A stretch of DNA of 42,702 nucleotides from Puniceicoccaceae bacterium. Its GTDB lineage: Bacteria > Verrucomicrobiota > Verrucomicrobiia > Opitutales > Opitutaceae. Positions 19,572 to 31,769 of the stretch are shown in pieces. The notes below the pieces were generated by a model. The model saw nothing but the letters and a program-made list of their open reading frames with translations. It was not told the DNA's origin and made no database searches. Every line of letters begins with the position of its first letter. Position 1 is the first letter of the stretch. The translations under genes and the position numbers were made by a program. The stretch is from contig REEB01000262.1 in the NCBI GenBank assembly GCA_007695295.1, positions 1-42,702 on the forward strand. The letters are read 5' to 3'.

Positions 19572-22500
19572 ATGAAGTCCATGCTCCGTTTCTCCACCCT
19601 CCTGCCAGCCTTGGCACTCCTCTCTATCGGCACGCTGCGTGCCGAGGACCGCCTCACTTTCGAGTGGGCGGTGACGACCGCGGACTCGCTCCCTTACCTC
19701 ACCACCACGAACGATCAGCGCTCCCTCGCCTACAATCCCGCCACGGGCAATCTCCTGCTGGTCAATCGGGCCGCCGGCCTTTCCGTCGTCGTTCTCGACG
19801 GCGAAAACGGCTCCCAAGTCGGCACCCTCGACGTCACCGGCGTCTCGGGTGGCTTCTGGGCGCTAAACTCCATCGCCGTCACCGAAGACGGCGTCATCTA
19901 CGCCGCCAACGCCACCAACCTCGGCGGCGTCACCGACGACTTCAAAATCTACCGCTGGGCCGATGAATCCGCCGCCCCCACCGTCGCCTACCAAGGCAAG
20001 CCCCTTGGCTCCGCGCGCGTCGGCGACGCCATCGCCGTCACCGGCACCGGCAACAGCACCCGCATTCTCGTCACCCCCGAGCCGGCTGATTTCACCTTCG
20101 ATTTCGCCGTCCTCACCACCACCGACGGCCTCTCCTTTTCCTCCACCACTTTCACCGTCAGTGATGACATCGGCTCGGTCGGCCCGGCCTTTGTCGCCGC
20201 GGACCGTTTCGTCACCACCCGCCAGGGCTGGGACCTCTTCGAGGTTCAATTCAATCTCGGCACCGGCACGGCCACGCTTGCGAAGAGTTTTTTCTTTACC
20301 GTGCTCAACGACGAACTCGGCTTTCTCGCCTTCGACGCTTCCCGTGATCTCCTTTTTGCGCGCCATGCCAACCAGGAAATCTGGGTCTTCCAATACTCCA
20401 CCCTCAGCCAGTCGTCGACCAACACCCCCGAGCAGATCATCCCCTTCGGCCCTTCGGGTTACACCCCCAATGCCAACGGCAACGCCACCGGCGCCCTCGT
20501 AATGGGCGAAAACACGCTGTACTACCTCGAAACCAACAACGGCATCAGCGCCTACTCGCTCGAAGAAACCTTCGACCTTCCCCTTCCCGAAGGCGTCGCC
20601 TGGCACATTACACCCGCCGCCGCACGCCCCTACATCACCACCGCCACCGGCGGCTTCCAGCGCGGCATGGCCTATAATTCCGCCACCGGCCACGTTCTCA
20701 TCGTCAACCGCGACGGCGGCCTCTCCATCCCCATCCTCGATGGCGAAACCGGCGCCGAAGTCGGCTTCCTCAGCACCGAGGGCATCACCGGCGGCAACTT
20801 CGCCCTCAACATGATTCAGATCGATGCCGACGGCGTCATCTACGCCGCCAACCTCGGGGTGGAGAATGGCCCCAATCTCAAGGTCTACCGCTGGGAAGAC
20901 GAAAGCGCCGATCCCGTGGTCATCTACGACGACCGGCCCTCCGCCAGCCGCTGGGGCGATGCCCTCGCGCTCAAAGGCAGCGGCGCCGAAACACTGCTCG
21001 CCCTCACCGGCGTCGACTTCTCCCAAGGCACCACCAATGAAGTCCTCTTCCTCTCCACCACCGACGGCGAGTCCTTCTCCCCGACGGTCATTCCGTTGGT
21101 CGGCGAAACCGCCGGCCGCATGGGCCTCGCCTTCGGCCACGACAACACCCTCTGGATGAAGCGTTCTGGTTCCGATCTGGTGGAGTATTTCTACGACCTC
21201 GGCGCCACCCCGAGCCTCACCCAGGGCCGCCGCCTCCTCAGCTCCCAGATCTCCCCCTCCATGGGACCCATCGGCATCGATGTCGAAAAGGACCTGCTCG
21301 TCGGCATCGATCCTTTCCAACGCTCCGCTTATTTCTACACCTATTCCAACTTGGCTGAAATGTTCATGCCCATCGAGCGGCGGGTGGATTTCCCCTTTGA
21401 ATCCCCCAATGGCAACGCTTCCGGCTCGATCGCTTTCGGTGAAGACAAGGTCTACGTACTCAGCACCAACCAAGGCCTCATGGCCATCGAGCTTGACGTC
21501 GAAGAACCCCCGCCCCCGCCGACCGATCCCGCCGTCGTTTGGCAGGCCGCCGCCGGCACCGCTCCCTACGTTTCGGATAACAACACCCAGCGCGGTCTCA
21601 CCGTCAATCCCGCCACCGGCAACGCCATCCTCGTCAACCGCAACGCCGGTCTCTTCATGCAGTTGCTCGACGGTCTCACCGGCGACCCCGTCGGCCAGAT
21701 GAGTGTCGAGGGCGTTTCGGGAGGCACTTTCCCCCTCAACCTCGCCGCCGCCGATGACGACGGCGTCATCTATGCCGCCAACCTCGCGCTCGACGGCCAG
21801 GCACTCAAGATTTACCGCTGGGCCGACGAGTCCGCCACCCCCTCCGTCGCCTACCAGGGCGAACCTGTTCCCGGCCAGCGCTTCGGCGACACCCTCGCGG
21901 TTCGCGGCTCCGGGAACACTACCCAAGTCATCCTCACTGCCCGCAACGGCAGCTCCGCCGTCCTCTTCACCACCGCCGACGGCGGCCTCTCCCTCACCCC
22001 CAATGTGCTCACGCTGAACGACAATCGCCTCGGCCTCGGCCTCGCTTTCGGTCCGGGCAACACCTTCTGGGCCACCGCTGTGGGACAGCCCCTCGTCGAG
22101 TACAGCTTCACCCTCAACTCCGCCGCTGCTGCCGAGCTGCGCACCATCGATACTGAAGTCTTCGACCCCTCGGTCGGGCCGATCGGCATCGATCCCGCCA
22201 GCGACCTGCTCGTCGGCATCAACACCGTCGCCCATATCGCCCGGCTTTACCGCCTCTCCGATATTGGTGAGGTCGGCTTCAACGCACCCTTCGCCTCGAT
22301 CGAATTTCCGACCACCAACACCAACGGCAATGGTGCCGGCGCGGTCGCCTTCGGCAACAGCCTCGTCTACGCTCTCGACACCAACAATGGCATCATGGCC
22401 ATCGATCCAATCGAAGCCGAACCCGTCGCCCCCGGCGATCTCTACTGGACCAACGCCACCGCCCTCCGCACCGGCGATCTCACTGGAGGCGAGGCCCGCA

Positions 22501-28248: not shown

Positions 28249-28689
28249 ATGGCCGCTACCGACTCTCCCTCCACGTTGCTTGATCGCCGCCTCGGCTTTG
28301 CCCTTCTCCGCATCCTGCTCGGGGTCAACATGCTCGGCCGCAGCATCCTGCGGCTGCCGGACTTGCCCGGTTTCGCATCCGGCATGGCGGCGGGTTTCGA
28401 GGACACTTTTCTGCCGTCGGCCTTTGTCTATGCTTTCGCTTTCGTCATCGTCCTGGCCGAAACGGTCATCGGCATTCTCCTCATCCTCGGCTGGAAAACG
28501 CGCTGGGCGTTGGTCGCGATGGGGCTGCTCATGTGCACCCTCACTTTCGGCATGATTCTGCGGGAACAGTTCGGCACCGTGGCCAACATCCTCGTCTACG
28601 GCATCGCGGTCAGTCTGCTCCTTTTCCACACCCGCTACGATGCCGTCGGGATCGACCGCGGATTCTCGTTAAAAGCCGAGGCCCACTGA
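28249..28689 (+). CDS. DoxX-like membrane protein
   Basis: This is a 146-residue inner-membrane protein with four predicted transmembrane helices (about 16-34, 58-82, 88-107 and 112-130). LGFALLRILLGVNMLGRSILRLPDL at the N-terminus and the FVIVLAETVIGILLILG helix resemble the DoxX/quinol-oxidase-subunit-like family. The function of the group is mostly unknown; some members act in redox or stress responses. A weak GGTAGG lies upstream of ATG 28249. It is convergent with thuA across a palindromic repeat cluster. Confidence 0.8.
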   Translation: MAATDSPSTLLDRRLGFALLRILLGVNMLGRSILRLPDLPGFASGMAAGFEDTFLPSAFVYAFAFVIVLAETVIGILLILGWKTRWALVAMGLLMCTLTFGMILREQFGTVANILVYGIAVSLLLFHTRYDAVGIDRGFSLKAEAH

Positions 28690-28747: not shown

Positions 28748-28891
28748 TCGAAACGACTCCGTCGTTCCGCTACGAGTCTTCACGTAGCGGAACGGTGGAT
28801 ACCGTTTCGATCACTCAAACCCCCGTAGCGGAACGGCGGATACCGTTTCGATCACTCAAACCCCCGTAGCGGAACGGTGGATACCGTTTCG
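28748..28891. repeat. Cluster of palindromic 41-bp tandem repeats with one inverted copy
   Basis: Three direct copies start at 28783, 28824 and 28865 (period exactly 41 bp). Each copy holds its own hairpin: CGGAACGGT, a GGAT loop, then ACCGTTTCG (28788-28809, 28829-28850, 28870-28891). The middle copy has one T-to-C change in the left arm. Copies one and two are separated by a conserved ATCACTCAAACCCC spacer. A fourth, inverted copy lies just upstream (28748-28774) with its own hairpin CGAAACGA-CTCCG-TCGTTCCG, so a long stem between it and the first direct copy is also possible. The cluster lies between convergent genes and ends seven bases from the thuA stop. This is the layout of REP/BIME-type elements. 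Confidence 0.9.
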
Positions 28892-28897
28892 ACCCCT

Positions 28898-29764
28898 TCA
28901 CGCCGGCAGCGGCCGCGGCGTGGCGTCGGCCGCGAGGTCGCCGAGCGCGTAGCGGATGCCGGCGTGGAAGTGACCAAGGACGGGTGGATTCCAGAAGAGG
29001 TGCGGGTTGTGGCCGAGCGAGGTATAGAAGACCCGGCCTTTTCCTTCCTCGCGAATCCAACTGATCGCGATGTCCCGGTCCGCCCGCCGTTCGGCCAGAA
29101 TGCGCCTCTCGGGACCGAAGTCACTTTTCTCAAGGTTGATCCGCAGGAGCACCCGGAGCCGGTCCCGCGAATAATGATCTTTCATCTGAAAGACTTCGTC
29201 CTGGATCTCGAAATCCTTCCCGCCGAAGGGCGCGTTGAGCGGGCTTTCCGCATCCTCCGGGGTCAGGGTAATGGTCTCTTTCGGCCCCCAGGGATGACCG
29301 CCGTTTTCATACCCGCCCAGCATCCGGCCGAATTCGGGAAACTGGTCGTAGCGCGGATACTGGCAGAAGGTCGCGGCCGCCGCATGGATACCGACAAATC
29401 CTTTTCCGCCCCGGACAAAATCGAGCAAGCCCTGCTGCCGGGCTTTGTCCTCCGTGAGCACTCCGAAGGTGTTGTTGAAACAGATCGCGTCGAAGTCTTC
29501 CAGGGCCGCAGGCTCGAAGCACGCCGGGTCATTGCTGAAAAAAGCGGTGAAACGGCCCGAGAGTTCACCGAGCCGGGCGATGGCGTAGTTGGACGGGTCG
29601 ATCGAGGGATGCCCGTCGAGAATGCGCCCGTCGCGGACATTGAGGTTGGTCACAAGAAGCCGGCGCCGGGCGCCCTTCCCTCCTCCGGCCATTCCAGGCA
29701 GCTTGAGGGCGGCTTCCACCGCCTGATCGATCACATTGCGTTGTTCGTCTCCAATTCGGTGCAT
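28898..29764 (-). CDS. ThuA-domain protein
   Basis: This 288-residue ThuA-like protein has a class I glutamine-amidotransferase-like fold. RRLLVTNLNVRDG opens the core (about residue 34). FDAICFNNTFGVLT and GGKGFVGIHAAAATF (about 115-132) form the central sheet. DEVFQMKDHYS and ISWIREEGKGRVFYTSLGHNP are the typical C-terminal blocks. The frame is open upstream to 29893, but ATG 29764 fits better because the GH43 gene ends at 29853. No signal peptide is visible, so it is probably cytoplasmic. ThuA proteins are linked to keto-sugar and disaccharide metabolism, often with Gfo/Idh/MocA enzymes. Here it is the last gene of the putative rhamnogalacturonan operon, 88 bp after GH43. Confidence 0.87.
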   Translation of the reverse strand: MHRIGDEQRNVIDQAVEAALKLPGMAGGGKGARRRLLVTNLNVRDGRILDGHPSIDPSNYAIARLGELSGRFTAFFSNDPACFEPAALEDFDAICFNNTFGVLTEDKARQQGLLDFVRGGKGFVGIHAAAATFCQYPRYDQFPEFGRMLGGYENGGHPWGPKETITLTPEDAESPLNAPFGGKDFEIQDEVFQMKDHYSRDRLRVLLRINLEKSDFGPERRILAERRADRDIAISWIREEGKGRVFYTSLGHNPHLFWNPPVLGHFHAGIRYALGDLAADATPRPLPA

Positions 29765-29852
29765 GGTGCCAGCATCGGGAAACTCACGGGCGGGACAAGG
29801 TTTGTCGCCGCATGACCAATCAAATCCCCAAGATCGCGCCGTGGCGGCCGGA

Positions 29853-31769
29853 TCACGCGCCGGGCGGCCGCAGCAGCACCCGGGCGGGCGCATCGCGGTC
29901 GCAGGTCAGCCAACCGTCGCAAAACCCCAGCTCCGCCACCTGGATGGAGCTGCGGCGGTCTTCCGGATAGGGTCGTTCATGCCGGTCGTGGGGATGGGTG
30001 AAATAGAACACAAAAGCCCTTTCGCCACTCACCACCACATCGGCATGCCGGCCCACCGCCTGGTCGTCACCACCCCGCCCCGGCTCCGCCAGCAGGAGAC
30101 CGGGCTGACGGGTCCACTGATTTGTATCCATGGACCGATACACGGCCTGCCCGGCCCAAACGTCCACCAACATCCAATACCAGCCCTGCCAGGAAAAAAC
30201 GTTCGGCCCCTCGCCGGCTTGGTCCTTGAGGATGCGGCCGCGGTCGGTCCAGCGCTCGAGGTCCGGACTTTCCGCGAGACAGATGGACTTGCCGTCGATT
30301 TCGTCGTTGTACCAGAGCCGCCAGCCGCCGTCGAGGAGTTGCAGGACGCAGGCGTCGATGACCCGGTCCGAGGTCAAATGGAGCGTTTCGCGGTGAGTCC
30401 AGCTCTCCAGATCCGAACTTTCGAGAACGGCGATCCGGCGCGGGCGGTTCCAGTCGGTGAAGATCCCCGGAACCACGCTGAGAAACATCCGGAAGCCGCC
30501 GGCATGAGCGACGATGTCCGGCGCCCAATGGCTGGCCTCGGCGCTCCCCAGTTCGGCCGGCAGGTCGATCCGGGCTTCGCCGTGGTGGCGCCACGTCACG
30601 CCGCCGTCGGCCGACTCCGCGATGCCGATGCGCGTACCGTGGACCCAGGCCACCCCGGGGACATCAGCGGGGGGTAGGTTGGCCCGCCGATTGGTGTAGA
30701 ACATCCACCAGCGGCGCCGCCGCGGATTCCAGACCACCACCGGATCGGCCGCTCCATCGAAGACCGGATCACGGAAGAGCGGCCGGGGGGCCGCGGGGGC
30801 ATCCGGCACCGGCCGCCCGAAGTCCGGCCGCCCGTCCGCCGTCCAACCCAACACTTGGGCGCGGGTGTGGCGGTTGGGATCGCGGAGTGGATCTCCGTCG
30901 ATATCCCTGTAGTTTCTGGCGTGATACACGAAGATCGTCTCTCCGCCGCCGGGCTGGCTCAGAAAGCAGTTGTGGCCGGGCCCGAACTGCCCGACGGCGG
31001 CATCGCTGCGGAAAACCGGCTCGGGAGACTTTTTCCATACGGAGGGGTCGAGCAGGTCGGCGGCGGCGGGTGCTTCCAACAGGCCGAGGCAGTAGTTGGC
31101 ATCGGTGGCGGAGGCGGAGTAGGTCAGAAAGACCCGGTCACCCTGGGCGAGAAAGGCGGGGCCTTCATTGACCCGGAAGCCGACGGTTTCCCAGGGAAGT
31201 TCGGGCTGGGAAAGCAGCACCGGCTGCGAGCGAAGGGTCGAGGGGGTTTCCAGCTCGGCAAGAAAGAGGCTGCTGTTGCCGCCGAAGTCCGGAAAGTGCT
31301 GCGCCCAGGCGAGGTAACGCCGGCCGCGATGGGCGAAGGTGGTCGCATCGAGGGCGAAGCTCTCCCAGCCGGTGCGGATCTGCCCCCGCTCGATCCATTC
31401 GCCTTCCAGCGGATCGGGGCTGGAGTTTTCCAGCACATACATGCGGATGGCCCAGATGTCCTCGGTGGCGCCGGCCGCGAAATAAATCACCCAGCGCCCG
31501 TCGATTCGGTGTAGTTCGGGAGCCCAGATGTGTGCCCCCATGATGCCGGTGGGGTGTTTTCGCCAGATGACCTTCGGGAAGGCATGGCGTAGGCCGTCGA
31601 GGGTGCGGGCGCGCCGGAGTTCGATTCGGTCGTACTCCGGCACGGTGGCAGTAAAATAGAACCAGCCGTCGTGGGCGGTGATCCATGGATCCGCCCGCTG
31701 TTCGACGAGGGGGTTGGTCCAGAGCGGCAATGACTGGGTGCCAGCGGCGCCGGTTGCGGGGCCGGTCAT
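29853..31769 (-). CDS. Double GH43-like glycoside hydrolase
   Basis: This is a 638-residue protein with two consecutive five-bladed-propeller domains of the GH43 type. Domain 1 (about 15-320) has candidate catalytic residues Asp27 (RADPW), Asp141 (ALDATTF) and Glu202 (NEGPAF), plus HIWAPELH. Domain 2 (about 330-625) has Asp342 (AADPVV), Asp472 (VIDACVL) and Glu520 (GEGPNVF), plus HWAPDIV. Both triads look complete, so both domains could be active. GH43 enzymes act mainly on arabinofuranosides, xylosides and galactan side chains, which fits removal of rhamnogalacturonan-I side-chain sugars. No signal peptide is visible, so it is probably cytoplasmic. The ATG overlaps the stop of the upstream esterase (ATGA). 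Confidence 0.85.
   Translation of the reverse strand: MTGPATGAAGTQSLPLWTNPLVEQRADPWITAHDGWFYFTATVPEYDRIELRRARTLDGLRHAFPKVIWRKHPTGIMGAHIWAPELHRIDGRWVIYFAAGATEDIWAIRMYVLENSSPDPLEGEWIERGQIRTGWESFALDATTFAHRGRRYLAWAQHFPDFGGNSSLFLAELETPSTLRSQPVLLSQPELPWETVGFRVNEGPAFLAQGDRVFLTYSASATDANYCLGLLEAPAAADLLDPSVWKKSPEPVFRSDAAVGQFGPGHNCFLSQPGGGETIFVYHARNYRDIDGDPLRDPNRHTRAQVLGWTADGRPDFGRPVPDAPAAPRPLFRDPVFDGAADPVVVWNPRRRRWWMFYTNRRANLPPADVPGVAWVHGTRIGIAESADGGVTWRHHGEARIDLPAELGSAEASHWAPDIVAHAGGFRMFLSVVPGIFTDWNRPRRIAVLESSDLESWTHRETLHLTSDRVIDACVLQLLDGGWRLWYNDEIDGKSICLAESPDLERWTDRGRILKDQAGEGPNVFSWQGWYWMLVDVWAGQAVYRSMDTNQWTRQPGLLLAEPGRGGDDQAVGRHADVVVSGERAFVFYFTHPHDRHERPYPEDRRSSIQVAELGFCDGWLTCDRDAPARVLLRPPGA

Follow-up and report, generated by a model that had tools for sequence, protein, structure and literature searches.

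GTAG-tagged hairpins between convergent doxX-like and thuA-like genes are very probably REP elements of a RAYT-associated family

Four hairpin elements lie in the gap between the convergent stops of a doxX/MauE-like gene and a thuA-like gene in the window, by which we mean the whole stretch of 42,702 nucleotides analysed here, from a Puniceicoccaceae bacterium. We consider it very probable that this cluster consists of GTAG-type REPs belonging to a RAYT-associated family, and most likely that the REPs were spread by a RAYT, after which the 41-bp array arose by local tandem duplication. The repetition of the units, their GTAG tag and their genome-wide family all exceed what chance provides, while a single hairpin does not.

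Layout of the cluster and structure of its hairpins

Three of the four units point right at a period of exactly 41 bp, and the remaining element points left ahead of them (Table 1). The direct copies occupy 28783-28823, 28824-28864 and 28865-28905 with identities of 100/98/83%, the third diverging only past its hairpin. An earlier sequence-only reading of this DNA had described three self-complementary 41-bp units between convergent genes, separated by a conserved spacer, and this description is confirmed: the period is exact, and the 14 nt of the spacer are identical between units 1-2 and 2-3. The short distances to both stops, also claimed at that point, hold as well. The cluster begins 58-59 bases beyond the doxX-like stop codon (28687-28689), and 6 bases separate the end of the last hairpin (28891) from the thuA stop codon (28898-28900). 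According to the list of open reading frames, the cluster is extragenic at this locus. Apart from the REP array, the sole exact repeated 24-mer in the window is found at 19887 and 20829.

Table 1. Features of the doxX-thuA gap and its flanking genes (window coordinates).
Feature	Position	Strand	Evidence or description	Context
doxX/MauE-like membrane protein gene	28249..28689	+	ORF; Pfam MauE 2.9e-7, DoxX 7.5e-6	upstream convergent neighbour
Class C REP, inverted (GTAGCGGAACGACGGAGTCGTTTCG)	28749..28773	-	about two dozen similar places in the genome	
Class D REP unit 1	28784..28809	+	GTAG and 9-bp hairpin, GGAT loop	
14-nt spacer ATCACTCAAACCCC, copy 1	28810..28823	+		
Class D REP unit 2	28825..28850	+	T-to-C at 28837 opens the apical pair	
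14-nt spacer, copy 2	28851..28864	+		
Class D REP unit 3	28866..28891	+	hairpin end 6 bases from the thuA stop codon	
thuA-like gene	28898..29893	-	ORF; Pfam ThuA 1.6e-30	downstream convergent neighbour

Units 1 and 3 read GTAG-CGGAACGGT-GGAT-ACCGTTTCG and form 9 bp, including one G-T (G-U) pair, as had been proposed for each unit. Unit 2 has the same class D core with C at 28837, and the suspicion that this change weakens one pair proved right, as the apical T-A pair becomes C-A and the stem is left with 8 bp. The inverted element, read on the minus strand of 28749-28773, is GTAG-CGGAACGAC-GGA-GTCGTTTCG. It had been taken for a fourth, inverted copy; an inverted element is indeed present, but it belongs to a sister stem class and is no copy, being 88-94% complementary to the tandem units across 17 nt and nearest to unit 2. 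In all four units, an unpaired GTAG (GTRG is the permitted variant among GTAG REPs) directly precedes the palindrome. At 25-26 nt, with stems of 9 bp (8 in unit 2) and loops of 3-4 nt, they also fall within the size range of such REPs (20-40 bp, stem of 6-13 bp, short loop). Lone 9-bp hairpins are common, with 29 on the plus strand of the window if G-T pairs and loops of 3-5 nt are allowed; what carries the case is that the units are repeated and belong to a family.

A dispersed family with four stem classes

The foot GTAGCGGA...TTCG is common to all classes of the family, and we recognized 86 of its elements on 36 contigs of the fragmented 4.6-Mb assembly. This number refers to a typed list, from which three hairpin-less matches to a looser pattern had been dropped and to which a class D copy on another contig (C192) had been added. 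The pattern GTAGCGGAAN{8,12}TTTCG matched the genome 59 times, versus 0 for the reversed pattern; the looser foot-based pattern gave 63 matches versus 4 reversed, and a class B pattern gave 25 versus 0. When the 166-bp region was used as a query against its own genome, 44 matches were obtained, the majority of them to the inverted element. The unit is thus present in many dispersed copies, as is typical of GTAG REPs.

These elements fall into four stem classes: A (AGCGC), B (GCCGC), C (ACGAC) and D (ACGGT). Class C is dispersed through the genome and class D is limited to 4 copies at 2 loci, namely the three in the window and one at C192:4171 with one mismatch. At C192:4126-4198 there is a second C/D tail-to-tail pair, with a class C-like partner and a spacer that differs from the window's. 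A hairpin recurring across the genome, as the sequence-only reading had envisaged, is therefore found at the level of the family; the exact tandem stem class is near-private, and the exact class D hairpin was found in 0 stretches of the genome-contig collection.

As in GTAG REPs, the palindrome is kept by complementary changes. The inner stem arms pair in 15/16 distinct sequences from the own genome (shuffle mean 8.0, p 0.0002) and in 37/55 from all genomes (shuffle mean 6.5, maximum 15 in 5,000 shuffles). As the inner arms pair far above shuffled arms, the stems change by compensation. Eight matches pooled from single-match genomes paired as by chance (1/8), and the effect in one genome taken alone (G027) was not significant (p 0.13).

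REP neighbours within 100 bp of each other form 18 head-head, 12 tail-tail and 7 head-tail pairs, and two of the head-tail pairs fall in the window. The elements also crowd contig ends, with 18/63 REP matches lying within 300 bp of an end versus 2.3 expected in this assembly of 278 contigs, so that the REP counts are lower bounds. REP clusters probably break the assembly. A total of 86 copies is low compared with other REP families, though the crowding at contig ends suggests under-assembly.

Two further repeats were seen near family members. First, C69 and C50 (L009, L010, L013, L024) carry, adjoining the present family, a second family of GTAG palindromes with the approximate form GTAGCTGACGTC-GTCA-GACGGCAG. 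Second, a recurrent stretch (approximately gaaaccacagattgctcagatagcacag) lies downstream of class A REPs on C24, C91, C122 and C209 (L056, L070, L075, L114), and is another dispersed repeat, which may belong to a longer unit.

Short, regularly spaced and partly palindromic repeats could also be read as a CRISPR-like array or an integron attC cluster. We give this reading practically no chance and reject it, considering that the spacers are identical and not unique, that the unit is dispersed genome-wide, and that no Rfam family is found anywhere in the window at the gathering threshold. Moreover, attC sites are longer than the units in the window.

A RAYT gene flanked by family REPs and its relatives in the order

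The presence of a RAYT gene, which the sequence-only reading had raised, is borne out: an intact gene encoding a 197-aa protein lies at C222:3290-3880 (L183, L185) among class A and class B REPs. A class A REP ends just before the gene and a class B REP stands just after it in inverted orientation, and the RAYT is thus flanked by inverted family REPs, as in a REPtron, for classes A and B. NCBIfam NF047646 (REP_Tyr_transpos) finds the gene at C222:3389-3766 with 1.5e-13 and 50.8 bits, which is below the curated cut-off of 80, and the protein matches PDB 4er8 'TnpArep', a solved structure, at 1.3e-5. When the C222 protein was aligned with 18 relatives of the order, H85, H87 and Y145 were invariant in 19/19 sequences, giving the HUH motif and the catalytic Tyr. 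The C222 RAYT is approximately 41-51% identical to its relatives in the order and, judged from its sequence, represents a divergent clade with relatives in many genomes there. In the genome-contig collection, the protein had no relative.

Pfam Y1_Tnp (PF01797) gave 14 matches in approximately 11 genes, with no REPs of this family within the scanned stretches; a first scan of the 14 Pfam-RAYT loci for GTAG hairpins showed nothing consistent, the C222 gene having been missed by Pfam. At the end of contig C114, a RAYT is cut to a 17-aa C-terminus that adjoins a C/B hybrid REP. Several observations weigh against the REP/RAYT reading of the window: no RAYT was found adjoining an intact REP of class C or D (the REPtron on C222 is made up of class A and class B elements), the tandem class numbers just 4 copies, the family total of 86 is low for REPs, and the C222 RAYT has no Pfam match and scores below the NCBIfam cut-off.

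Some additional transposase-like genes deserve mention. A degraded RAYT-like gene with three in-frame stops lies at C6:1483-1872 (L184). Six related Y1_Tnp genes of approximately 330-345 aa on C34, C252, C4, C16, C46 and C86 (L127-L131, L133) are preceded by a motif around 'TAGGGACAGGCTAttTAT' instead of GTAG REPs, and are likely a separate transposase group. On C101 and C178 (L125, L126), long inverted repeats starting GGGGTCAG bracket RAYT-like genes, and these repeats fit the GGGGWSAS motif that PMC3733652 gives for 'TIRYT' genes.

When the C222 RAYT was used as a query against 177 genomes of the order, 45 of them gave matches. In a separate search across relatives, no other same-genus genome was among those returned. 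GTAG hairpins lie within 500 bp of the RAYT relatives at 15/20 loci (the strongest matches, own C222 locus included; two further strong matches without a locus were left out), versus 1/29 control loci, which were doxX-like loci. Seven other tetranucleotides were found in the same role at 0-1 of the 20 loci. Among the 5 RAYT loci without a GTAG hairpin, one (L188) has GGAG-tagged hairpins. The hairpin stems vary between RAYT loci; one of them (G112, L190) reads GTAG-CGGAACGGG-GAA-CCCGTTTCG, a design near class D.

Upper stems are varied, with four classes in the own genome and a different stem at most relatives' RAYTs. We tentatively suggest, as a possibility that is more doubtful than not, that one RAYT clade of the order recognises only GTAG and a lower stem whose G-T pair marks the strand, leaving the upper stem free to change, and that a single RAYT could mobilise all four classes in trans, including class D. 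If this is true, the RAYT-stem pairs across the order would be naturally occurring data from which the recognition code could be studied.

Origin of the array, its place at gene ends and comparison with known systems

In the history that we consider most likely, each unit would be a single-strand DNA hairpin signal, consisting of an unpaired GTAG followed by a stem. The lower stem (CGGA...TTCG, with a strand-marking G-T pair) is common to the family, and the upper stem varies by compensatory change. By analogy with the TnpA-REP literature, the C222 RAYT or a relative would have bound the hairpins on one strand, spread them as non-autonomous elements and placed a class C/class D tail-to-tail pair in the doxX-thuA gap. 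The class D element with 15 nt of flank would then have been duplicated twice in tandem, as the identical, private spacer suggests. GATCACTCAAACCCCC is present genome-wide at only the two spacer sites, even with up to 2 mismatches allowed; since the spacer is absent elsewhere in the genome, the array most likely grew in place, the element being duplicated together with its flank, rather than through independent insertions.

The same spacer could speak for a local minisatellite, in which a chance hairpin was duplicated in tandem with no link to a transposase: spacer and unit were duplicated as one 41-bp block private to the locus, and the class D stem has just one other locus. However, the GTAG tag and foot of all four units are shared with approximately 80 other dispersed elements, the class of the inverted unit is scattered through the genome, and slippage accounts for the array but not for the unit. 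We thus regard a minisatellite as very improbable; it is largely refuted as an account of where the unit came from, and we keep it as the mechanism of array growth.

Another explanation is that the hairpins are a functional bidirectional 3'-end element, which ends or protects the doxX and thuA mRNAs and was selected for this role. The convergent setting is consistent with this, as is the closeness of the last hairpin to the thuA stop codon. In E. coli, REPs within approximately 15 nt of a stop codon cause ribosome stalling. The region also folds strongly as RNA, at -67.4 versus -46.1 kcal/mol in shuffles for the plus strand (z -5.5) and with z -3.4 for the minus strand, and such effects are described for REPs elsewhere (PMC8266576, PMC3733652). 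On the other hand, 0 terminator-like sites were found and no T tract follows the hairpins, so an intrinsic terminator (a hairpin with a T run) was rejected. Nor was the doxX-thuA junction found in close form elsewhere. Among 100 family genomes, no close homologue of the doxX-like protein was found (best identity 41%), and only 1/29 foreign loci examined (L224) also has a thuA-like match, at 39%. An empty version of the site was likewise not found among them.

The strandedness of the hairpin also argues against selection for the mRNA ends. The D hairpin folds at -11.1 kcal/mol on the GTAG strand versus -7.3 on the thuA-mRNA strand, and every D hairpin loses 2-4 kcal/mol on the thuA side, the foot G-T pair being G-U on the doxX-side strand and A-C on the thuA-side strand. 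This asymmetry is expected if the signal is read on one DNA strand. PMC8266576 reports that TnpA-REP acts on the REP strand but leaves the complementary strand unprocessed, and that the E. coli enzyme depends critically on GTAG. Overall, we consider a selected 3'-end element unlikely, while protection of both mRNA ends, which the sequence-only reading had raised, is a plausible conjecture: if transcribed, the hairpins would cap the 3' ends of both mRNAs.

Returning to the REP/RAYT reading, the genome holds a complete REP/RAYT set of four stem classes plus one candidate transposase, and its group is one for which REPs are on record from few genomes. Many RAYT-hairpin pairs thereby become available for probing which features the transposase recognises, and the window adds an instance of array growth in which element and private flank were duplicated jointly in the rare head-tail orientation.

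Among known systems, one close likeness is to the 24 GTAG-tagged REP families of Di Nocera, De Gregorio and Rocco 2013 (PMC3733652), of which families 17, 19 and 20 come from Opitutus terrae (Verrucomicrobia). Compared by description instead of consensus sequence, the families are like ours in having an unpaired GTAG, a stem of 6-13 bp with a short loop and G-T pairs, and sub-families whose stems differ by complementary changes. They also share dimers of the head-head, tail-tail and, rarely, head-tail type, heterodimers, and sites between convergent genes. The C222 locus resembles the REPtron/RAYT arrangement of E. coli, Stenotrophomonas and Pseudomonas, as given in Nunvar 2010 (PMC2817692) and PMC8266576, in which two inverted REPs flank the RAYT. 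It has two alternating REP forms, class A before the gene and class B after it, together with the HUH and Tyr motifs and the match to TnpA-REP 4er8, and its layout is that described for RAYTs in PMC2817692. Unlike the E. coli REPs, the family stems have a lower-stem G-T pair instead of an AA-GC bulge, and the 86 copies are fewer than the >100 given as usual in Nunvar 2010.

The sequence-only reading had likened the cluster to a REP/BIME element. The REP part stands, given the GTAG tag, the dispersed family and the RAYT; the BIME part stands partly, as three of the four units have the same direction. Classes A and B do form head-head pairs with GTAG outside, most of them 20-35 bp apart and many in tandem, and these pairs are REPIN-like. 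In contrast, the window cluster is one tail-tail pair with two extra direct units, with no alternating pairs. The kind of element is already well known, and its host group is little studied.
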